From positions 2,542,001 to 2,606,000 of the forward strand of contig NZ_JBBNAC010000001.1 of assembly GCF_037996825.1 (NCBI RefSeq): a stretch of DNA of 64,000 nucleotides, given 5' to 3'. The notes beneath the pieces are model-generated. The model saw nothing but the letters and a program-made list of their open reading frames with translations. It was not told where the DNA came from and made no database searches. The position numbers were made by a program, and so were the translations under genes. Positions 9,210-20,624 of this stretch are shown here, piece by piece. Position 1 is the first letter of the stretch; each line of letters begins with the position of its first letter. The DNA comes from Bdellovibrio sp. BCCA. GTDB lineage: Bacteria; Bdellovibrionota; Bdellovibrionia; Bdellovibrionales; Bdellovibrionaceae.

Positions 9210-9263
9210 GAGGTTCTCCTTAAGATGTTTATTTTCAGAAATTAGATTATCGGAATTTTTGGC

Positions 9264-9306
9264 AAAAAAAAAGCGACCAGGATTGGGGGGGGAGGGTCCT
9301 GGCCGC
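9264..9306 (-). terminator. intrinsic terminator or attenuator upstream of the coiled-coil gene
   Basis: On the minus strand GCGGCCAGGA and TCCTGGTCGC pair over 10 bp (one G-U), with a C-rich 14-nt loop and then nine T. It lies 5' of the coiled-coil gene, so it either ends a separate minus-strand transcript or attenuates the leader of that gene. Its 5' arm shares four bases with the next upstream hairpin. Confidence 0.75.
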
Positions 9307-9540
9307 CATGGGGGGGTGCTTTCTACTAAAGCAATGGCGGTGCCATGATCACTTCTTCGTCAAAACCGATTAAACTAGCAAAGATCACATCCGCGTTGTC
9401 GATCCCTTAGACGGAATCTGACAATTGTGGGCCTCTTTTCGAGGCATCAGCGTCTAAGAATGGATGGCCGACTGGACCAAATATTTGTTTGCTCATAGAT
9501 CAAAACGAGACACTTGAGGCGTGACCTTATTAAGGTCTCG
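9303..9540 (-). ncRNA. candidate structured RNA or leader in a 445-bp gene-free stretch
   Basis: No coding frame is convincing here. Three strong structures occur. First, CCGCCAT (9303-9309) with ATGGCGG (9334-9340), enclosing TGCTTT/AAAGCA. Second, a bulged hairpin with CTTAGACG/CGTCTAAG (9406-9413, 9451-9458), CTGA/TCAG and GCCTC/GAGGC around TTTTC. Third, GACCTT/AAGGTC (9523-9537), competing with CGAGAC/GTCTCG (9506-9540). The minus strand is favoured because a terminator with a nine-T tract follows on that strand. No Rfam family was recognised. Minus-strand transcription is an inference; the stems themselves exist on either strand. Confidence 0.45.
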
Positions 9541-9621
9541 TTCCTTGGAAATATCCGAAACAGTATTTACCTCAGGAAGGTGGAAATAGGCCTCATTTCA
9601 GATTTGCAATGCTCACAAACC

Positions 9622-9649
9622 TTTAGTGCTCCTATGGAGATCCCGAACT
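9622..9649 (+). promoter_or_regulatory. weak sigma-28-like promoter of fibre gene 1
   Basis: TTTAGTGC, 12 nt, CCCGAACT; the -10 box ends 7 nt before the ATG. The match to GCCGATAA is only partial. It is reported because position and -35 resemble the other fibre and surface-gene promoters here. GGAGA lies 17 nt before the ATG, too far for a normal ribosome site. Confidence 0.3.
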
Positions 9650-9656
9650 ATTAAAC

Positions 9657-12600
9657 ATGGAACGTAAAGGAATCACACTCATTCGGTGTTGCATATTGAT
9701 ACTTTGGACTTTGGGAGTTTCTGGGGCTTGGGCCGCAGGCCCCTCCACCCTGCAATCTCTTACTTATCAAGGTCGTATCCTAAAAGCTGACGGCAGCGCC
9801 CTTGAACACAACAGCGTGAGTTTTCTTTTTGAGATCACAAATCCGACCGGATCTTGCGTGATCTACCGTGAGCAAGTCAATGGCATCAATATGTCTGGTT
9901 CTAACGGCGTCTTTGACGTGCCGATTGGTTCAGGCACAAAACTTTATCCGTCAGATCCTCTTTTTAAACTTTTAGATTCCTTCAGTAACTCCGCTAGTTT
10001 TTTATGCGATGGCGGCGTCACCTACAATCCAACGGTGGATGCCACTCGACTTTTGAAAGTGCAATTTCACGACGGACACGGTTGGAATGAAATCAATCCT
10101 CCCAATGAGATTCGTAACGTGCCTTTTGCGGCGTATTCTCTTTCAGCACAAAAACTGGGAACCAATATCGCTAGCGACTTCGTTTTAAGATCCAGCATTC
10201 CTACTTGTAGCGCAGGCCAAGTTCTTTTTTATAACGGCACAGCTTTAAGCTGCGTCACCGATGCGGGAAGTAGCGGTGTCGTTACTTCGGTTGCAGGCAG
10301 CGGTCCTGTAACAGTGACTGGAACTAGCAGTGTGATTGTGAGCGTGACGACGGGAACAACGGCGGGAACTGTCGCTGCCGGAAATGACTCACGTTTTACA
10401 GATGCGCGTCCTCCGACGGGAAATGCGGGCGGCGACCTCTCTGGAACTTATCCAAATCCGACTTTGGCAAACGGCGTGATCACAACGTCAAAACTTTTTG
10501 CCAATCCTGGAATCAACCGTCTTGTTGCTACAGACGCGACAACGGGTGCAAATCTCACACATTTAGATTGCACGGTGGGAGAGGTTTTAACCTGGAGTGC
10601 CGCAAACGGTTGGCAGTGCACTTCTCAAAACTCTCTTGTCGTTGGAAGTGCTGCGAGTGCGACTGGTTTCACTGGTTCCCTTGCTGGCGACGTGAGTGGC
10701 ACACAAGGTGCGACGTCGGTGAATAAAATCAAAGGTATCTCTGTCGATGTGACAGGTTTAACATCAGGACAGGTTTTAAAATATGATGGAAGTCAGTGGA
10801 GTCCTGCGAGTCTGACAGACGCAAATGCTCTGCCTTTAGCCGGTGGAACCATGAGTGGCGCCATCAACCTTAACAGCAACAATCTTACGAACATCGGTTT
10901 TATGACGATGGTTGCAAATAAATCCCTGCATCTTTCAAACAACGCTTCAGATCCCACAGGATTAACGGGCGCTGACAAAGGGAAGACTTGGTTTAACTCG
11001 ACATCCAATCAAATCAAGTATTGGGATGGAACCGCTGTGCAAACTTTGGGTCTTGCGGGCTCAGGTCTTACTGCTTTAACCGGCGATGTCACCGCGACAG
11101 GCCCAGGGTCTGCCGCTGCGACAATTGCCAATAGCGCTGTCACGACTGCAAAGATTAATAACCTTGCTGTGACGGATGCAAAAATCAATGACGTCGCCGT
11201 TGATAAAATCACGAGTGCTGCGGGAAAATATTTTTCTTACGCTCCGAACAACGTCGCTTGTACCAACGGTCAAGTTTTATCAAAAACAGCCAACGGTTGG
11301 GAATGTGCTTCCGCGACATCTTTAACGAATGCTCTTACGAATGGTCGCATTCACGTCGGTAATGCTTCCAATATCGCAACCGAAGTCGTGATGAGTGGCG
11401 ACGCCACTTTATCAAACGCGGGTGCACTGACATTAGCGAACTCAGGTGTTACGGCAGGAACTTATACCAAAGTAACGGTGGATGCTAAAGGTCGTGTAAC
11501 CACAGGTACAAGTCCAACGACTTTAGCTGGTTATGGAATCACGGATGCTCAACCGTCAGGAAATTACCTTACGGCTTTAACCGGAGACGTCACCGCGACA
11601 GGCCCCGGCTCTGGAGCTGCGACCATTGCCAATAATGCTGTCACGACAGCGAAGATTAATAACCTTGCAGTGACGGATGCAAAAATCAACGATGTCGCTG
11701 TTGATAAAATCACAAGTGCTGCGAGCAAGTATTTCACTTATGCACCGAACAACGTCGCTTGTACGAACGGTCAAGTCTTAATGAAAACCGCCAACGGTTG
11801 GGAGTGCGGAGCCGCGAGTGCTGGTTCTGTAACGAGCATCACGGCAGGAACAGGATTGACCGGTGGGACAATCACTTCTACAGGAACTATTGGCTTAGGA
11901 ACAGAACTTGCCGCTGTGGACGGAATTTCTTCAACAGGTTATGTGCAAAGAACAGGTGCTGGAGCTTATTCGACAACAGCAGGAAGTACGTCAGCTTCCA
12001 ACAACACTCTTGTGCAAAGAGATGGTTCCGGAGTTTCTAACTTTTACGGCGTTGGTGTTACAGGTGCCACAAGCGGGACTGTGACTTTGCGTTCTGTCGC
12101 AACTGTGACGAGCTACTCCCTGACTTTCCCTGGAACACAAGGGGCTGCGGGAACTGTTCTTTCCAACGACGGAGGTGGCGGTCTTTCTTGGGCAAGTATT
12201 TTAAATACCTCTTTGAGCAACGGAAAAATTTATGTCGGCAACGCTTCCAACGTAGCAACAGCTGTGACCATGGCTGGAGATGCCACACTGTCTAATGCCG
12301 GAGCTTTGACACTTGCGAACTCTGGTGTTACTGCGGGTACTTATGCAAAAGTCACCGTGGATGCGAAAGGACGCGTGACTTCGGGAGCGGCGCTGGTGGA
12401 TGCTGATGTGCCATCAACAATTTGGCGCACAGGTGGAAACACTTTGGGAACAGCCGGTTCGATTGGTACAAAAGACAACTTTGCATTAAGCTTCATGACG
12501 AACAACACGACAAAAATGACTTTGGATGCGAATGGAAATCTGGGAATCGGTACGGCCTCGCCAGCCAGTGCTCTTCACGTTGTGGGTGATATTCAGTTCA

Positions 12601-13025
12601 CAGGAACGATCACGGATATTTCCGATAGACGCCTAAAGAAAAACATTCGTCCTTTGACTTCGGGTCTTAATACCGTTCGTAAAATTTCAGTTTATTCTTA
12701 CGTGATGAAAGATGATCCGCACGAAAGAACCGAGTACGGGGTCATGGCTCAGGATATGATGCAAATTCTTCCTCACCTTGTGAAAACCGTGGATACCAAC
12801 GGCAATTACTATGGTGTGAATTATTTGGGTCTTGTGCCTTGGAGTTTAAAGGCGATTCAAGAACTTGATACCAACACACAAACTCTCAGTCGTGAAATCG
12901 CTTCTGTCCGTGACGAGAACAAGGCTTTGAAAGAAGAAATCAACAATCTCAAAGACAGAAACGATCGTCTTGAAAAACAGATGAATGAAGTTCTTTTGTT
13001 ACTTAAAAACAAGGGATCCGAGTAA
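9657..13025 (+). CDS. trimeric fibre/adhesin 1 with C-terminal S74 intramolecular chaperone (MAT-like)
   Basis: A signal peptide (to SGAWA) is followed by the conserved fibre N-domain (LTYQGRILKADG, SVSFLFEITNPTGSC, YREQ, NGVFDVPIGSGT), which is shared with two other genes here. A long Thr/Ser/Gly/Ala-rich shaft follows, like phage tail-fibre shafts (GGDLSGTYPNPT, VTVDAKGRVT). At the C-terminus is a Peptidase_S74 endosialidase-type chaperone: SDRRLKKNI with the predicted self-cleaving Ser989, YGVMAQDM, and a terminal coiled coil (about 1071-1115). In characterised S74 proteins the chaperone directs trimer folding and is then cut off. The family matches the Bdellovibrio mosaic adhesive trimeric proteins, implicated in prey recognition. 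No Shine-Dalgarno site is evident. The propeller gene starts 2 bp after its stop. Confidence 0.92.
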   Translation: MERKGITLIRCCILILWTLGVSGAWAAGPSTLQSLTYQGRILKADGSALEHNSVSFLFEITNPTGSCVIYREQVNGINMSGSNGVFDVPIGSGTKLYPSDPLFKLLDSFSNSASFLCDGGVTYNPTVDATRLLKVQFHDGHGWNEINPPNEIRNVPFAAYSLSAQKLGTNIASDFVLRSSIPTCSAGQVLFYNGTALSCVTDAGSSGVVTSVAGSGPVTVTGTSSVIVSVTTGTTAGTVAAGNDSRFTDARPPTGNAGGDLSGTYPNPTLANGVITTSKLFANPGINRLVATDATTGANLTHLDCTVGEVLTWSAANGWQCTSQNSLVVGSAASATGFTGSLAGDVSGTQGATSVNKIKGISVDVTGLTSGQVLKYDGSQWSPASLTDANALPLAGGTMSGAINLNSNNLTNIGFMTMVANKSLHLSNNASDPTGLTGADKGKTWFNSTSNQIKYWDGTAVQTLGLAGSGLTALTGDVTATGPGSAAATIANSAVTTAKINNLAVTDAKINDVAVDKITSAAGKYFSYAPNNVACTNGQVLSKTANGWECASATSLTNALTNGRIHVGNASNIATEVVMSGDATLSNAGALTLANSGVTAGTYTKVTVDAKGRVTTGTSPTTLAGYGITDAQPSGNYLTALTGDVTATGPGSGAATIANNAVTTAKINNLAVTDAKINDVAVDKITSAASKYFTYAPNNVACTNGQVLMKTANGWECGAASAGSVTSITAGTGLTGGTITSTGTIGLGTELAAVDGISSTGYVQRTGAGAYSTTAGSTSASNNTLVQRDGSGVSNFYGVGVTGATSGTVTLRSVATVTSYSLTFPGTQGAAGTVLSNDGGGGLSWASILNTSLSNGKIYVGNASNVATAVTMAGDATLSNAGALTLANSGVTAGTYAKVTVDAKGRVTSGAALVDADVPSTIWRTGGNTLGTAGSIGTKDNFALSFMTNNTTKMTLDANGNLGIGTASPASALHVVGDIQFTGTITDISDRRLKKNIRPLTSGLNTVRKISVYSYVMKDDPHERTEYGVMAQDMMQILPHLVKTVDTNGNYYGVNYLGLVPWSLKAIQELDTNTQTLSREIASVRDENKALKEEINNLKDRNDRLEKQMNEVLLLLKNKGSE
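11067..11807 (+). repeat. duplicated 240-bp shaft unit within fibre gene 1
   Basis: Bases 11067-11306 and 11568-11807 encode nearly the same 80 residues (LTALTGDVTATGPGS to NGWEC), offset by exactly 501 bp. A second pair, around 11330-11520 and 12210-12400, repeats GNASN-x-AT through VTVDAKGRVT. The copies differ mostly at synonymous or conservative sites, pointing to internal duplication of shaft modules. Confidence 0.85.
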
Positions 13026-13027
13026 TA

Positions 13028-16000
13028 ATGAGACTTCGTAATTTATTTGCCCTTAGCATCTTTGTACTTCTCGGCCTCGTGACCAGTTCTTGGACCTGGG
13101 CGGCTTGCAGTTCTCCAACGGGAGCAGCAGGCACCATGGATTATTTTACCGCAGAAAATGTTTTTAAATATTGCGATGGCACATCGTGGGTGCCGATGAA
13201 ATATGGCGGTATCTCGTTAATCAATAAACTCACGGACCCTTCCCCTTACGCTATCTCTAGCGCTGGAGTCGTCGCCGTGAAAGGCAATTATGCTTACGTG
13301 ATTGATCCAGCCGGCTCTTTGCTGGTTCTCGATATCACCACTTTGAGCAATCCCACTCCTGTGACTAAAGTTTCTGATTCATTTTTCAATTCCACATCGG
13401 CCCTTTTGGTTTCCGGAAGTTATTTAATCGGTGTTAGGAGTGGCACCGTTTATATCGTTGATATCACAACTCCGACGGCTCCCGCGATTTCAGGTTCCGT
13501 CACAAATGCGAATCTGAACAACGCCTCTTCGCTGGCTGTGAGCGGGAATTACGCCTACGCTTACACATCTTTAATCAACCCGGGCCGCCTTGTCGTTATC
13601 GACATCTCAAATAAATCGGCTCCTGTCCAAACGGGCTTTGTCAGTTCACCATCTATCGCCAATGGAGCTGCTGTCGCAGCTTCCGGAGGTTATGCCTATG
13701 TCAGCGTCGGCGCCTCATCAATCACTGCGATTGATGCGACAACACCCTCATCACCTGCGATCGTCGCTAGCATCAGTGATTCACGCATGTCCTCGATTAA
13801 AGCCATGGCTATTTCAGGAAACTATATTTATGTCGTTTCCACTACCGGAGGCACGGGGACTTTCAGCGTTATTGATATCGCAACAAAATCAAATCCTACT
13901 TTGATCTCGGCTGTCACTGGTGCAAACTATGGAGATTTTTACGGCGTCAACAGTTTGTGGGTCAATGGCAACCTTGCGTATGTCGCTTTAAATCCCGGCA
14001 GCAACTCTGGTGGATACGTGCAAACCGTCGATATCAGCAATCCTCTGGCACCAAAAGCGATTTTTTCTTACCGACTCATTGGCGCAGGAACCTACGGTGC
14101 CAAGTACGTGCATGGTGATGGCAACAAATTGTTTGTCGTCGATTCCAACTCAATGCTTTTAACATTTGATCTTTCTTTGAAACCGACACTTTCTAAAACT
14201 GGTGAAAGCTATCTTCGTGACAAGTCCGGCATTAGCTACGGATATATTGCAACCACGGGATCTGCCACTGCCGTCATTGATTTGGATGAAACGATTTACT
14301 GGTTCGATACGAGCACGCCTACAGCTTTAAACTATGTTTCTCAATTCACTCTTCCCGGTAACACCAACCGTTTTGCTACGGGCGTCGCCATGAAAGGAAG
14401 CTATGTATATTCAGGCAACTCTAACACCAGCCGTTTGAGTGTTGTCGACTTTACAGACACATCCAACCCCATTTTGATTTCCGGTATTTCAGATCCAAAC
14501 TACAACGGAATTGGCAGCATGGAAGTTTCCGGAAATTATTTGTATATTTCTCGGACCGGCGGACTACTTGTGATGGATGTTTCTACGCCAGCCAATCCAA
14601 CTTACGTGACTAAAATCACAAATGCTTTTGTGAGTGCGGGATCACGCCTTAAAGTTGTCGGAAGTAAAGTCTATGTGACTTCCAGCGGAGGAGATCTTGC
14701 AATCTTTGATATCACGACCCCGACAGCGCCTAGTTTCTTAGGAAAAGTGACCGACGTCACAAATCTAAATGGAGCCAAAGGACTTGATGTTCAGGGAAAT
14801 TATGCCTACGTCGCTGCGATGAATTGCAAATGTCTGACGGTGGTTGATGTGAGTAACTCGGCAAGTCCCTCCATCGTGAATGCATTCACCAACAACACGT
14901 ATTACGATGTGATTGAAGACGTTATCGTCAACGGAAGTTACCTTTATACTTACTCTTACACAAGAGGACTTGCCACAGTCGATATCTCAACACCGACAAG
15001 CCCCTCTCCAACAGGAGTCATTTCAGGTGGAGGCTATGTCCTAACTCGCAACGGAAACACTCTTTACGCCGGTGGTACGGCATCAGTAAAAGCATTTAAT
15101 ATTACGACAGCGTCCGCTCCATCTACGACATCGGATGTGGATCCCGAAGGTAAGCTTGAGGGAATTGCCGGCATTGCCTCAGTGGGAAATTATGCCTACA
15201 GTGTCGCCGCGACAACAGGAATTTTTACGGTCATGGATGTGACGGATAAAACAAATCCCGTCGTTATAGGGTCTGTCAAAAACACGGCACGCTTTAATGG
15301 CGCGACGAACCTCACCGTTTCCGGCAGCTATGCATATGTAGTTTCACCTTCGAATTTGACCATCGTGGACATTTCTACTCCGAGTGCTCCTTCGGTTGTA
15401 GGCTTTTTAAACGACGCTACAAATCTGCCGACGCCGAAGGATGTTTACGTCTCGGGAAATTATGCTTACGTTGTTGCCACCAACCGTCTGACTGTTGTGA
15501 ACATCACGAATAAAGCTGCACCCACTTATTCGACAAATCTTTCACATGCTTTAATTTCAGACTGTCGTCAGATTGTCGTTTCAGGAAGTTATGCATATCT
15601 GCCTTGTTCAACAAGCACGTCGTTGGTGATAGTTTCATTGGCAACACCAGGGTCGCCTTCTGTAACGGGTACGCTCCAAGACGCAACGAATTTGGTCAGT
15701 GCCCGCACAGTTGTTGTATCTGGGGGTTATGCTCTTGTGGGAGCGTCCAATTCTTACGGTGGAGCCGTCGTTAACGTCAGCACACCTTCCGCTCCTAGTT
15801 TTGTGAAGACCATGCCTCTTTCGAACATCCTTTTTATGGCGCAAAAAAATTCGATGGTCTTTTTTCAAAGCAGTACTTATGGCTTCGGACAGATGTCGAT
15901 CTCTGATCCGGCAAATCCTAAAGTGCTCAGCACAAGTTATCCAAGCTCCGTGAACATCAGCACGCCTTCACAACTCGCTCTCTCTGGAAACTATCTCTAT

Positions 16001-17221
16001 CGGGCAGCACCAACAAGCACGATGGAAATCTGGAGTATTGCCGACTCAAAAGTGGCCCTCTACGAAGAGGCCAGTGCTAACTTCACAAATATTTTTGGAA
16101 CCGGCTACAGAATCAAAGTCGTGGGGACGACCGCCTATGTGACTTCCAAGTTCGGCCAGAGATTTACGGCCGTGGATATTTCAAACATTGATTCCCCGAC
16201 GATTTTAGGAAGCATCGCCGATCCAAAATTTGACTCACCGACAGGAATAGAGATTTCCGGTAACTACGCTTACATCAGTGGCGCAGGCGCTGGTTACGTC
16301 ATGACAGTCGTCGACATCACTGATCCTGCCAACATGAAGGTCTTGGCTTATTATTCAAACTTCACTTATCTCGCCTTAGGTGAAAATCTTATCACTTCAG
16401 GAAATTATATTTTTGCGACATCCCGAATGAATGGACGCGTAACCTCCTTTGATATTTCAAATCCGCTGGCACCGTCTCTCAAAAGCTCGGTCAACGTGAC
16501 TAGCCCCTATGATCTGGTAAAAAATGGCAATTATCTTTATGCCTGCTCTTCTTCCGGAGTCGCTATTATCGATGCTTCAAATCCACTGAGCATGTCCCTT
16601 GTGACGACCTTCATTGATAACGCCGTCACCAGCTGCCGCTCGCTGGCTCTTGACGGGAACTATCTTTATGCTTCCGGAACAACGAATAAAACGTTCGCGG
16701 TGATAGATGTCAGCACGCCCACCTCGCCGGTGCTTTTAGGCAGTATTTCCGATGCAACGAATTTGTTCGTGGTAGAGGATATTAAAATTTCTGGTAACTA
16801 TGCTTATTTCGCGACCGGATCAAACCGCATTGGTATGATCGACATCACAACAAAAACAGCCCCTGTTATGTCGGAAGTTTTAAATAGCTCTTCGGATGTC
16901 GGCAGCGCTTATGAATTATTTGTTTCTGGCAATCGCATTCTTGCCCCTAATTTCTCGGGTTTGGGACTGTCGACTTATAAAGCGGCTGCCTCTGTCAACG
17001 TTGGAAGCTGTACAACCGGAGGAACGATCAATTACGACACGACTCAAAAAGTTTTAAGCTTCTGCAATGGTACAAACTTCAAAGCCATGGGACCTGTCCC
17101 TGGAGCTGGCGGCGCTGGATGTTCTTCACCTGCAGCCACGGCCGGAGCCCTGGAGTACTTTAACGCCACCAATAAGTTTAAATACTGCGACGGAACAAAC
17201 TGGGTGACGGTCGGCAACTAA
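13028..17221 (+). CDS. giant exported LVIVD-repeat (beta-propeller-like) protein with CDG-W end modules
   Basis: The 1397-residue product has a signal peptide (to WTWA). Its body is about 27 copies of a roughly 45-residue repeat ending in phrases such as LVVIDISNKSAP or LTIVDISTPSAP, with GNYAYV earlier in each unit. This is the LVIVD pattern, expected to form one or more beta-propellers. Both ends carry a short cysteine module, CxSPxxxAGxxxYF ending in FKYCDGTxWV, and a third related copy (LSFCNGTNF) lies before the last. The start codon is 2 bp after the fibre 1 stop (TAATAATG), so the two are almost certainly cotranscribed and may form a complex. No catalytic residues are apparent. The function is unknown; ligand binding or fibre capping is inferred from context only. 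Confidence 0.88.
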   Translation: MRLRNLFALSIFVLLGLVTSSWTWAACSSPTGAAGTMDYFTAENVFKYCDGTSWVPMKYGGISLINKLTDPSPYAISSAGVVAVKGNYAYVIDPAGSLLVLDITTLSNPTPVTKVSDSFFNSTSALLVSGSYLIGVRSGTVYIVDITTPTAPAISGSVTNANLNNASSLAVSGNYAYAYTSLINPGRLVVIDISNKSAPVQTGFVSSPSIANGAAVAASGGYAYVSVGASSITAIDATTPSSPAIVASISDSRMSSIKAMAISGNYIYVVSTTGGTGTFSVIDIATKSNPTLISAVTGANYGDFYGVNSLWVNGNLAYVALNPGSNSGGYVQTVDISNPLAPKAIFSYRLIGAGTYGAKYVHGDGNKLFVVDSNSMLLTFDLSLKPTLSKTGESYLRDKSGISYGYIATTGSATAVIDLDETIYWFDTSTPTALNYVSQFTLPGNTNRFATGVAMKGSYVYSGNSNTSRLSVVDFTDTSNPILISGISDPNYNGIGSMEVSGNYLYISRTGGLLVMDVSTPANPTYVTKITNAFVSAGSRLKVVGSKVYVTSSGGDLAIFDITTPTAPSFLGKVTDVTNLNGAKGLDVQGNYAYVAAMNCKCLTVVDVSNSASPSIVNAFTNNTYYDVIEDVIVNGSYLYTYSYTRGLATVDISTPTSPSPTGVISGGGYVLTRNGNTLYAGGTASVKAFNITTASAPSTTSDVDPEGKLEGIAGIASVGNYAYSVAATTGIFTVMDVTDKTNPVVIGSVKNTARFNGATNLTVSGSYAYVVSPSNLTIVDISTPSAPSVVGFLNDATNLPTPKDVYVSGNYAYVVATNRLTVVNITNKAAPTYSTNLSHALISDCRQIVVSGSYAYLPCSTSTSLVIVSLATPGSPSVTGTLQDATNLVSARTVVVSGGYALVGASNSYGGAVVNVSTPSAPSFVKTMPLSNILFMAQKNSMVFFQSSTYGFGQMSISDPANPKVLSTSYPSSVNISTPSQLALSGNYLYRAAPTSTMEIWSIADSKVALYEEASANFTNIFGTGYRIKVVGTTAYVTSKFGQRFTAVDISNIDSPTILGSIADPKFDSPTGIEISGNYAYISGAGAGYVMTVVDITDPANMKVLAYYSNFTYLALGENLITSGNYIFATSRMNGRVTSFDISNPLAPSLKSSVNVTSPYDLVKNGNYLYACSSSGVAIIDASNPLSMSLVTTFIDNAVTSCRSLALDGNYLYASGTTNKTFAVIDVSTPTSPVLLGSISDATNLFVVEDIKISGNYAYFATGSNRIGMIDITTKTAPVMSEVLNSSSDVGSAYELFVSGNRILAPNFSGLGLSTYKAAASVNVGSCTTGGTINYDTTQKVLSFCNGTNFKAMGPVPGAGGAGCSSPAATAGALEYFNATNKFKYCDGTNWVTVGN

Positions 17222-17253
17222 AGATTTATCTCAATTTGAAGCAAAATAAAAAC

Positions 17254-17281
17254 TCATATTTGTTTGCAATTGTGCCGATAA
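17254..17281 (+). promoter_or_regulatory. sigma-28-like promoter of fibre gene 2
   Basis: TCATATTT, 12 nt, GCCGATAA. The -10 box equals the E. coli FliA consensus at all eight positions; the -35 is partial. It ends 1 nt before the first ATG (17283) and 7 nt before the second (17289). A transcript starting at the usual distance would begin at about 17289. Confidence 0.5.
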
Positions 17282-17282
17282 G

Positions 17283-20200
17283 ATGTTCATGGACACACTC
17301 AGGAACGTTTTTGTATTTGTGGTGCCCGTACTTTTTCTTTTCGCCTTCCCGGCCGAATCTTCTCCTTTGAGTCTTAGTTACCAAGGGCGAATACTCAAAT
17401 CCGACGGCACACCACTGCAGTTTAATAATGTCAGCTTTCTTTTTGAAATCACATCTGCTGATGGAAATTGCGTTTTGTATCGCGAGCAAAAAGACGCCGT
17501 AAACATGCAAAATTCAAACGGTGTTTTTGATGTTCCCATTGGTTTAGGAACACGTTTGTTCCCGACGGGTCCGGTGTTTTCACTTTCTGATATCTTCGTC
17601 AATGGTGTGACTCACTCTTGTGCTGGTAGTGGAACTTGGGTCGCTTCTAACTCCGCCGAGCGCCAACTCAAAGTTCAATTTCATGATGGTTCTGGTTGGA
17701 ATGTTATTTCTCCGGCCAATATAATTCGTTCAGTTCCGTTTTCTTACACAGCTTATTCTGCGCAGAAAATTGCTGATAAGTCTTTAAATGATCTTTTATT
17801 AAAAACGTCAGCTCCCATGACAGCTTGTTCGGCGGGACAGGTCATTACTTGGAACGGAACAAGTTTCACATGCGTCACCGATGCTGGCGGCTCTGGAGTG
17901 GTGTCTGATGTTCTAGCGGGAACAGGTGTTGTTGTGAGCGGCACGGCGACAAAAACGGTGGGCTTAGCAAACACCTCTGTCACGGCTGGCAGTTACGGAT
18001 CAGCCACGCAGGTCCCAACATTTTCTGTCGATGCTCAAGGCCGTTTGACATCCGCTTCTTCCGTGACGATTTCAGGAGTCGCTCCGGGAGGAAGTGCCGG
18101 AGGAGATCTTTCCGGCACTTATCCAAATCCCACCGTTAGTAAAATTGCCGGAAAAAATCTTGCGGTCTCTTCGCTGACAGCGGGAAATATTCTTAAATAT
18201 GACGGCACGGATTGGGTGAATGTAATTCCATCTTCTGCAGATTTATCAGACGCTGGTTCTCTTTTAAAATCTTCGCAAATGCCTGCGACCTGTGCTGTAA
18301 ATCAAACTCTCAGCTTTGTTTCACCAACAGGTGCATGGACGTGTTCGACGATTGGATTAAACTGGTCGCAAATCACTAGCGGAAAGCCCACGACTCTTTC
18401 GGGCTATGGCATCACAGATAAACTTGTCAGCAATGCAGGCGCCGGAGCCCCTTCAGATATCGTATCACTACAAGCTGGGGTAAATGCCTCAAAACCTGCC
18501 GCAGGAACTGCAGGACGAATTTATTTTGCAACAGACACAAAAGAAATTTATCGCGATGATGGCGCTTCGTGGATTCGCCTGGCGACAGAATCAGGAACAA
18601 GTACAGCCACAATCAATAATGTTATTGCCGGAACGGGATTAAGTGGCGGAGGATCTTCGGGGGCGGTGACATTGAATCTTGCAAATACAGCTGTCACCGC
18701 CGGCACTTATGGTTCTGCGACACAAGTAGGAACTTTCACTGTGGATGCTCAAGGTCGACTGACAGCGGCTTCCAATGTCACAATCTCTGGCGTTGCACCT
18801 GCAGGTTCTGCTGGTGGTGATCTTAGCGGGACTTATCCAAATCCTGTTGTTCAAAAAATTCAAGGAACTGCGGTGTCGTCATCCTCACCAGGCGGAGTGG
18901 GTCAGGTGCTTCGATATCAAACGGGACAATGGGTTCCTGCATTTTTGGGAATTGCCGACATACGATCTGCGATCACACCTTTTGGTGGCGCTTTTGCCAG
19001 CGCAGCGTGCACCGCTTCGGAATCACTTTATTATCAATCCGCTTCGGATAGTTTTAAATGTCAAAGCATCAACATTGATGCAGCTCAGATTACGAGCGGC
19101 GTGATTGATTCCGCACGCTTGCCTGCAAGTGCAACTTTGTGGCAAGACGACGGCAGTGGAAAAATTTATTACAACACTGGCAATGTCGGCGTTGGAACAA
19201 CCTCCCCGGGATATTTGCTCGATGTAGCCGGAAACGCCAACGCTCAAAAAATCTGTATTGCCGGGGACTGCCGCTCTTCATGGCCCGCAGCTGGAAGTGC
19301 TTCGACGACACCTCTTGCCACCCGTCTTGAAGCCAGTGACATTGCTGCTGGCGGATATGCAGCAGCGACAGATCTAACTCCCGATTTAAATGCGACTACT
19401 CTAAACACCTTGGGAGGAGCCAATCTCGCAGCAAACCGCGTGGATATTCCTTCCGATGGCGTTTATCTTCTGGAAGCTCGTGCGAATTTCTGCCCACAAA
19501 CAACCCACTATTCAGCTATAAAACTCTATCAAAATGGAACTCTTATTCAGTTCGCCGTTTCGCCCACGGCCGCGGGTTGCCAGACTACGACCTCCACAAT
19601 AACCAAAAGCTTAACTGTCGGTGACAAAATCACCATGACACTTTTTGATTCACAAAATGGTCCGACGATGGGCATTCAAAGAATTTCTTTGACCGTTATT
19701 AAATTAAACTCCGCTGGGACAACAATTTTAGGTGATGCTGATGGCAACACAAAAGTGGAAGTTGAACGCTCTGTGAATGATGACACTCTTCGTTTGGTCA
19801 CGGCAGGAACAGACCGCGTGACCGTCACGAGTACCGGCAACGTCGGCATTGGCACAACGACACCAGCTGCGACATTAGATGTTAACGGCGGCGTGAAGTT
19901 AGGAACAACGAGCACGTGTGATGCCTCTGCCGAAGGAACCATGCGCTACAATTCGACGAAAAAAGCGATGGAGTTTTGTAACGGCAGCGAATGGAATTTA
20001 ATAAACCCTCCGCAACCAGTCGTTTTTCATCGCATGATGAATGCAAAATGGATTTGCGATAACGGAACACACTCACTGACACCAAGTTACACCTCGGACC
20101 GTTGTACCTACACTGTTGTCACAGACAACCAGAAATTGCTGACGATTCCCCTTACAACAGCGGGGCAATTGTCGACCACCGGAACCTACCATCTTAAGAT

Positions 20201-20600
20201 TCGCTATCATCAGGCGATGTTGACGAGTGATAATGATATTGGCCTCGGCATATCCGACGGTACCAACGCTATAATTTTCACTCGCAACGACTCCGCCAAC
20301 GCCACTCTTGGAAACTGGGCCGTGGCTCCGGATGCAGCTTCCTATAACTTTACTGGAACTCAATTCACAAACATTCCAGCGACGTCTTCTAACTGGGAAA
20401 ACTTAAACATGCATTTAATAATTAAAAATGGAAGCACCTGGGCCAGTACAAGTGTTGACAGCAACGTTGAACCAGCACGAGGCTTCTCTCCAACGGCACT
20501 TAATCTTAATAACGCTTTAAAGCTTGTCCTCTGGGGTAATAATGCCGCCGAACAATACGGCATCTATTCTATTGAAGTCACGATCACGCGAGATCAGTAA
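17283..20600 (+). CDS. trimeric fibre/adhesin 2 with C1q-like region and a distinct tip domain (MAT-like)
   Basis: Up to 1105 residues. The N-domain matches fibre 1 (LSYQGRILKSDGTPL, VSFLFEITSADGNC, YREQ, NGVFDVPIGLGT), and the shaft again carries GGDLSGTYPNP and FTVDAQGRLTAASNVTISGVAP, each twice. Instead of an S74 chaperone there is a C1q/TNF-like trimer region (about 673-810, DIPSDGVYLLEARANF), a CDG-W-type module (TCDASAEGTMRYN to EFCNGSEWN) and a unique terminal domain of about 190 residues rich in Ser/Thr/Asn (ends YGIYSIEVTITRDQ), probably the recognition tip. The GCCGATAA box suggests translation from the second ATG at 17289 on a leaderless mRNA (1103 residues). No Shine-Dalgarno site is present. 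Confidence 0.9.
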   Translation: MFMDTLRNVFVFVVPVLFLFAFPAESSPLSLSYQGRILKSDGTPLQFNNVSFLFEITSADGNCVLYREQKDAVNMQNSNGVFDVPIGLGTRLFPTGPVFSLSDIFVNGVTHSCAGSGTWVASNSAERQLKVQFHDGSGWNVISPANIIRSVPFSYTAYSAQKIADKSLNDLLLKTSAPMTACSAGQVITWNGTSFTCVTDAGGSGVVSDVLAGTGVVVSGTATKTVGLANTSVTAGSYGSATQVPTFSVDAQGRLTSASSVTISGVAPGGSAGGDLSGTYPNPTVSKIAGKNLAVSSLTAGNILKYDGTDWVNVIPSSADLSDAGSLLKSSQMPATCAVNQTLSFVSPTGAWTCSTIGLNWSQITSGKPTTLSGYGITDKLVSNAGAGAPSDIVSLQAGVNASKPAAGTAGRIYFATDTKEIYRDDGASWIRLATESGTSTATINNVIAGTGLSGGGSSGAVTLNLANTAVTAGTYGSATQVGTFTVDAQGRLTAASNVTISGVAPAGSAGGDLSGTYPNPVVQKIQGTAVSSSSPGGVGQVLRYQTGQWVPAFLGIADIRSAITPFGGAFASAACTASESLYYQSASDSFKCQSINIDAAQITSGVIDSARLPASATLWQDDGSGKIYYNTGNVGVGTTSPGYLLDVAGNANAQKICIAGDCRSSWPAAGSASTTPLATRLEASDIAAGGYAAATDLTPDLNATTLNTLGGANLAANRVDIPSDGVYLLEARANFCPQTTHYSAIKLYQNGTLIQFAVSPTAAGCQTTTSTITKSLTVGDKITMTLFDSQNGPTMGIQRISLTVIKLNSAGTTILGDADGNTKVEVERSVNDDTLRLVTAGTDRVTVTSTGNVGIGTTTPAATLDVNGGVKLGTTSTCDASAEGTMRYNSTKKAMEFCNGSEWNLINPPQPVVFHRMMNAKWICDNGTHSLTPSYTSDRCTYTVVTDNQKLLTIPLTTAGQLSTTGTYHLKIRYHQAMLTSDNDIGLGISDGTNAIIFTRNDSANATLGNWAVAPDAASYNFTGTQFTNIPATSSNWENLNMHLIIKNGSTWASTSVDSNVEPARGFSPTALNLNNALKLVLWGNNAAEQYGIYSIEVTITRDQ

Positions 20601-20602
20601 AA

Positions 20603-20624
20603 GACCGAGACCTTGGTCTCAGAG
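20603..20624. other. palindromic hairpin after fibre gene 2
   Basis: GAGACC-TT-GGTCTC is a perfect inverted repeat just past the stop codon. It is followed by GAGCGCTTTT, only four T, so termination is possible but weak. Confidence 0.4.

Follow-up and report, generated by a model that had tools for sequence, protein, structure and literature searches.

The 64,000-nucleotide stretch of Bdellovibrio sp. BCCA analysed here (contig NZ_JBBNAC010000001.1, positions 2,542,001 to 2,606,000; hereafter the window) carries three consecutive forward-strand genes, which encode a fibre protein (fibre 1, 9657-13025), a very large propeller protein (13028-17221) and a second fibre protein (fibre 2, 17283-20600). 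A preliminary description of this DNA had given the same order and the same intergenic gaps of 2 bp and 61 bp, both of which were confirmed, and had considered the three genes as one compact locus joined by a cysteine module, named CDG-W, with the propeller acting as a detachable tip, a fibre-capping partner or a second prey-binding arm. The locus raises the question of which fibre, if any, the propeller belongs to and what it does there. Comparative sequence data support the idea that fibre 1 and the propeller are one unit, and fibre 2 is judged on the same kind of data to lie outside it. The two proteins probably constitute a two-component prey-binding fibre, in which the propeller serves as a separate tip adhesin in the manner of phage gp37-gp38. 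Among the three options offered, the capping partner or tip is the best, and the notion that this tip is detachable is unsupported.

Linkage of the propeller to an S74 fibre

Propellers of full length, carrying one CDG-W module at the N-terminus and two at the C-terminus, were found in five of the 369 Bdellovibrionota genomes searched: the window genome, G005, G020, G069 (Bdellovibrio sp. qaytius) and G145, which belongs to another family. The immediate upstream same-strand gene encodes an S74 fibre in all five, the two genes being about -14 to +11 bp apart, and the further neighbours and chromosomal sites differ among the five loci. The preliminary description had proposed a check for propellers that lack fibre neighbours; no full-length module-bearing propeller without an S74 fibre directly upstream was found among the 369 genomes. 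The G145 fibre shows no match to the simple MAT (mosaic adhesive trimer) N-terminal motif used, so the propeller is apparently linked to the S74 tip and not to the MAT N-terminus. In Bdellovibrio sp. qaytius, three tandem propellers with three modules each are located behind one S74 fibre (L116, 3588-16210), possibly as alternative tips for that fibre.

The fibre tips follow the same distribution. When the last 192 residues of fibre 1 were searched in the four other propeller genomes, the best match was in each case the propeller-partnered fibre (68, 61, 54 and 46% identity), whereas the remaining S74 fibres showed at most 41% over comparable lengths, short repeat matches aside. In a tree of 74 S74 tips from the five genomes, the five propeller-partnered tips form a single clade with a support of 100/100, a fibre lineage that matches the propeller lineage. 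The 18 residues that immediately precede the cleavage serine are specific to these partners, being 78% identical among propeller-partnered fibres but 14% identical to other S74 fibres, and none of 20,000 randomised one-per-genome sets reached the 78% group identity. The end is kept even though the partnered fibres range from 1122 to 3326 amino acids in length. Shared descent alone would explain some of this tip conservation. On the propeller side, the modules (42-55% identical) and their linker (71%) are more conserved than the four propellers of the body (31-32%). Judged from these alignments, the conserved parts of the fibre and the propeller are those that would be expected to meet.

Domain structure of fibre 1 and the propeller

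The following features were assigned to the two proteins:

9657-13025, forward strand: fibre 1, an S74-type MAT fibre of 1122 amino acids (Pfam, NCBIfam)
9744-10193, forward strand: conserved MAT N-terminal domain of fibre 1, residues 30-179 (NCBIfam NF053851, 224 bits)
12567-12620, forward strand: last 18 mature residues of fibre 1, SALHVVGDIQFTGTITDI, up to the predicted cleavage serine; putative docking end whose conservation is limited to propeller-partnered fibres
12621-13022, forward strand: self-cleaving S74 chaperone plus coiled coil at the C-terminus of fibre 1, starting at Ser989 in SDRRLKK; a homologue of the S74 chaperone of phage S16 gp37 (6f45_A)
13028-17221, forward strand: propeller protein of 1397 amino acids, choice-of-anchor B / LVIVD family, with 28 predicted blades in four predicted 7-bladed propellers
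13100-13201, forward strand: N-terminal CDG-W module of the propeller, with two Cys and closing Trp54
13211-14170, forward strand: predicted propeller 1, 28 strands = 7 blades (AlphaFold2 model)
14237-15100, forward strand: predicted propeller 2, 27 strands, ~7 blades (AlphaFold2 model)
15164-16075, forward strand: predicted propeller 3, 28 strands = 7 blades (AlphaFold2 model)
16103-16981, forward strand: predicted propeller 4, 27 strands, ~7 blades (AlphaFold2 model)
17003-17092, forward strand: C-terminal module 1 of the propeller, with closing Phe1351
17114-17215, forward strand: C-terminal module 2 of the propeller, with closing Trp1392

Both fibres of the window possess the conserved beta-rich MAT domain that follows the signal peptide, as shown by their matches to NCBIfam Bdello_MAT_N (NF053851; 224 bits for fibre 1 and 208 bits for fibre 2, cut-off 60). 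Fibre 1 terminates in Peptidase_S74 (Pfam PF13884, 60.2 bits against a cut-off of 22), in which the S74 motif SDxxxK is present as SDRRLKK at residue 989. Autocleavage of an S74 domain before the serine is demonstrated for Bd3182 in the main text of the MAT study (PMC10769870), and by analogy fibre 1 would be cleaved before Ser989 at its predicted site.

The propeller scores 143 bits against choice_anch_B (TIGR04312), above the curated cut-off of 100, and 343 bits against LVIVD (PF08309, cut-off 20), with 17 LVIVD stretches. It was modelled by AlphaFold2 as two separate halves from 4-sequence alignments, with the N- and C-terminal modules in different models. The halves have a mean predicted local distance difference test score (pLDDT) of 75-76 and contain 28+27 and 28+27 strands, counts that fit four 7-bladed propellers; low-confidence linkers lie at residues ~384-403 and ~1005-1026. 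A sequence search found no relatives of solved structure, and Foldseek returned for the second half generic tandem propellers only, with template modelling (TM) scores of ~0.2-0.35, which are uninformative on the ligand. A phage origin of the propeller was also considered and rejected, as a tblastn search of 50,697 phage records gave no match. The possibility that the propeller is a lactonase-like or PQQ-like enzyme acting on prey surfaces, with the fibre as a mere carrier, could be raised from weak sub-cut-off Pfam matches to PQQ_2 and SBP56 and from a weak Lactonase match in one orthologue. However, no enzymatic family scores above its cut-off for the window propeller, and this role seems highly improbable.

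Number and distribution of CDG-W modules

The propeller carries CDG-W modules at residues 25-58, 1326-1355 and 1363-1396 (65, 37 and 63 bits), and in 1000 shuffled versions of the protein no module score exceeded 7.8 bits. A cysteine module had been described at each end of the propeller; both ends indeed carry the module, but there are two at the C-terminus and hence three in all. Their closing aromatic residues are W, F and W.

The modules are not restricted to propellers. The window genome has 12 CDG-W matches (E up to 0.01), chiefly directly before the tips of non-S74 fibres, a position common to many such fibres in propeller-free genomes. Across the phylum, CDG-W is carried by non-S74 fibres, by proteins that resemble pilins and by small secreted proteins, the last often with three modules in a row. 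Because CDG-W occurs without an adjoining S74 fibre, fibre docking cannot be the sole use of the modules. The claim that they are specific to the fibre-propeller partnership therefore fails, and as a marker of such partnership they are ruled out by their wide distribution. An equal frequency of CDG-W in unrelated proteins had been named in the preliminary description as evidence against its reading; this was found in part, since 35 of 60 relatives have matches and the carriers include pilin-like and small secreted proteins.

Some of these carriers were inspected individually. In two genomes of the same family, small secreted proteins have three CDG-W modules directly after the signal peptide (L033-L039), which in one case are joined to a glycine-rich domain (L038); no S74 fibre adjoins the genes at the loci inspected. 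In another genome segment (L103, 2828-8602), four consecutive pilin-like genes with N-methylation-type starts each encode a CDG-W module in the C-terminal half.

Fibre 2 and its putative promoter

The features that concern fibre 2 are:

17275-17282, forward strand: CCGATAAG, a FliA-type attack-phase -10 box directly before fibre 2, outside the fibre 1-propeller unit
17283-20600, forward strand: fibre 2, a non-S74 MAT fibre, neighbour judged to be outside the unit
19911-20006, forward strand: CDG-W module of fibre 2, directly before the tip domain (whole-genome E 1e-13)

The module in front of the fibre 2 tip had been described correctly, and together with the adjacency of the genes it could suggest a three-gene complex in which the fibre 2 module pairs with those of the propeller. 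The tip domain of fibre 2, however, recurs in a single other genus member, G009 (68%). This genome is propeller-free and has the domain at the same site of the chromosome, flanked by a coiled-coil gene and amidase-rph genes. None of the other four propeller loci contains a fibre 2, and the same pre-tip module is present in many non-S74 fibres of propeller-free genomes. Such a complex is hardly credible and is ruled out by the synteny and distribution of the fibre 2 tip. The compact locus thus stands for fibre 1 and the propeller, which are together in five of five genomes, but not for fibre 2, which also has its own -10 box. The coiled-coil/amidase-rph site (window 9210-20612) is a hot spot for fibre genes, being empty in many genus members and occupied by one or two MAT genes elsewhere; fibre 1 and the propeller replace a gene for a MAT protein of 1018 amino acids.

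The consensus of attack-phase FliA promoters is TTAAG-N16-CCGATA (PMC3627812). The strict pattern has no match in the window, and the box before the fibre 2 start codon was matched by the looser -10 pattern. One such octamer is expected by chance per 64 kb, so the box alone is weak evidence; it gains credibility because it immediately precedes the start codon, a placement shared with other MAT genes. CCGATA lies near the start of 9 of 26 MAT genes compared with 21 of 472 other genes, and in many MAT genes, as well as in two B. qaytius propeller genes (L116 near 7801 and 12047), CCGATAA(G) precedes the start codon by ~7 nucleotides. Examples of the box are seen at window 17275-17289 and in L246, L248, L249, L257, L268, L290, L292, L293 and L029. 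The ~7-nucleotide spacing from the -10 box to the start codon suggests leaderless attack-phase messages.

Other S74 fibres with closely linked secreted partners

For most of the other S74 fibres checked in the five genomes, the next gene is distant or oppositely oriented. A few are followed closely by genes for secreted proteins, which are of the fibrinogen-C type (L258, with LamG, L260, L309 and L328), glycine-rich (L254) or small and cysteine-rich (L319); two additional close neighbours, L326 and L256, look cytoplasmic. In the 74-tip tree, the fibrinogen-partnered fibres form one clade, including one partnerless member, and the glycine-rich-partnered fibres form a separate clade, in which one of the two partners is separated from its fibre by up to 96 bp. 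A profile built on the N-terminal domain common to the fibrinogen- and glycine-rich-type partners has matches in 47 of the 369 genomes. An S74 fibre gene immediately precedes 19 of the 29 profile loci examined, with gaps of -38 to +13 bp; four of these 19 are seed members of the profile. Gene order thus indicates that pairs of an S74 fibre and a secreted partner with its own gene recur in Bdellovibrionota. Some S74 fibres are apparently trailed by two tandem fibrinogen-type partners (L339, L340 and L345).

These spacings bear on the possibility that the propeller acts independently as a secreted or surface adhesin, sharing its expression with fibre 1 without ever contacting it, so that the linkage would reflect attack-phase timing only. 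LVIVD and choice-of-anchor B proteins are usually stand-alone surface proteins. Elsewhere in the phylum, LVIVD proteins that lack the modules are either lipoproteins or long proteins, and the gene immediately in front of them does not encode an S74 fibre; in two genus members, shorter module-free LVIVD lipoproteins lie near an S74 fibre but are not co-directional with it. The CDG-W modules could also bind another surface component. Nevertheless, co-expression by itself fails to explain the single lineage and shared mature end of the partnered fibre tips, and MAT genes behind other MAT or S74 fibres, with the same timing, keep gaps of 49-150 bp, compared to -17 to +13 bp for the secreted partners. 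An adhesin acting on its own is therefore regarded as unlikely.

The position of the propeller gene directly behind a fibre gene is also what would be expected of an assembly factor, like T4 gp38 (PMC6851490, PMC12892980), that supports the folding or export of fibre 1 and is then released. However, fibre 1 has its own S74 chaperone, and a neighbour of this kind is absent behind most S74 fibres in the same genomes. In addition, a secreted protein of 1400 amino acids whose body diverges fast while its end modules are conserved resembles a recognition protein, which makes a role in assembly quite improbable.

Proposed mechanism and implications

In the proposed two-component fibre, fibre 1 would trimerise with the aid of its C-terminal S74 chaperone, which would then cut itself off at Ser989 and leave a blunt trimeric fibre end that lacks any receptor domain. 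The propeller, presumably co-transcribed with fibre 1, would be secreted separately and cap the exposed end. The three CDG-W modules would be the likely plug, one per fibre chain and each ending in an aromatic residue, and the 28-blade body would display a variable prey-contacting surface. Cleavage of fibre 1, docking, a 1:3 stoichiometry and prey binding of the propeller are inferred.

Several observations weigh against this mechanism. The CDG-W modules are poorly modelled, mostly with a pLDDT of 42-60, they also occur in proteins without a neighbouring S74 fibre, and G145 has no aromatic residue at the closing position of the second module. The three propellers per fibre in B. qaytius mean that a one-cap model needs alternative caps or several caps per fibre. 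No gp38-like family was found among the Pfam and PHROGs matches of the propeller, so the analogy to gp38 is a functional one. Finally, the N-terminal domain of the fibrinogen and glycine-rich partners is a different one, and the docking mode is accordingly not uniform.

More tentatively, Bdellovibrionota could employ a general two-component system of prey recognition, in which the trimeric end left by S74 self-cleavage takes an exchangeable separate adhesin (28-blade propeller, fibrinogen/LamG-like or glycine-rich) that is class-matched to the fibre-end sequence. The propeller class would dock via three CDG-W modules in one chain, mimicking the one-module-per-chain trimer of ordinary fibres. 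If S74 fibres were bare sockets for separate adhesins, a combinatorial prey-recognition repertoire would result, which bears on how bacterial predators recognise many kinds of prey. The propeller, fibrinogen-like and glycine-rich proteins would then form a class of candidate receptor-binding proteins, the gp37-gp38 solution would extend from phages to cells, and a docking code could be predicted from the last 18 mature fibre residues and the end modules of the adhesins.

Comparison with known systems

The MAT fibres of Bdellovibrio bacteriovorus (PMC10769870) share their N-terminal domain with both window fibres, fibre 1 falling into the S74 subgroup and fibre 2 into the non-S74 subgroup, but the known MATs hold the tip in the same chain. 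The main text of that study does not mention a separately encoded tip partner, gp38, a propeller, fibrinogen or an operon. Among choice-of-anchor B / LVIVD surface proteins (TIGR04312, PF08309), the propeller is a member by its above-cut-off scores and LVIVD stretches; it differs in that its ends bear three CDG-W modules instead of a known anchor and in that its gene is tied to an S74 fibre. The S74 fibre and fibrinogen-C adhesin pairs found here likewise have the adhesin gene directly behind the fibre gene. Their recognition domain is different, however, and they have an N-terminal domain with an F-PT-S-EW motif, not three CDG-W modules.

The closest functional parallel is the gp37-gp38 pair of phages T2 and S16, in which, as in the window, a fibre with an S74 chaperone is followed directly downstream by a separate adhesin gene and the distal part is variable. 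The S16 gp37 chaperone (6f45_A) aligns to the S74 region of fibre 1 with an E value of 2.5e-4. A gp38 monomer caps the gp37 trimer by inserting three tryptophans into three equivalent pockets (PMC6851490), and the propeller has three modules that each close in an aromatic residue. The propeller differs in having neither the glycine-rich sandwich nor the helical attachment domain, in its size of ~1400 amino acids and in being secreted by a cell. The propeller most likely grips prey from the exposed end of the fibre, in a two-part layout of fibre and tip that is already known from phage tail fibres and appears to be repeated with other tip proteins across Bdellovibrionota.
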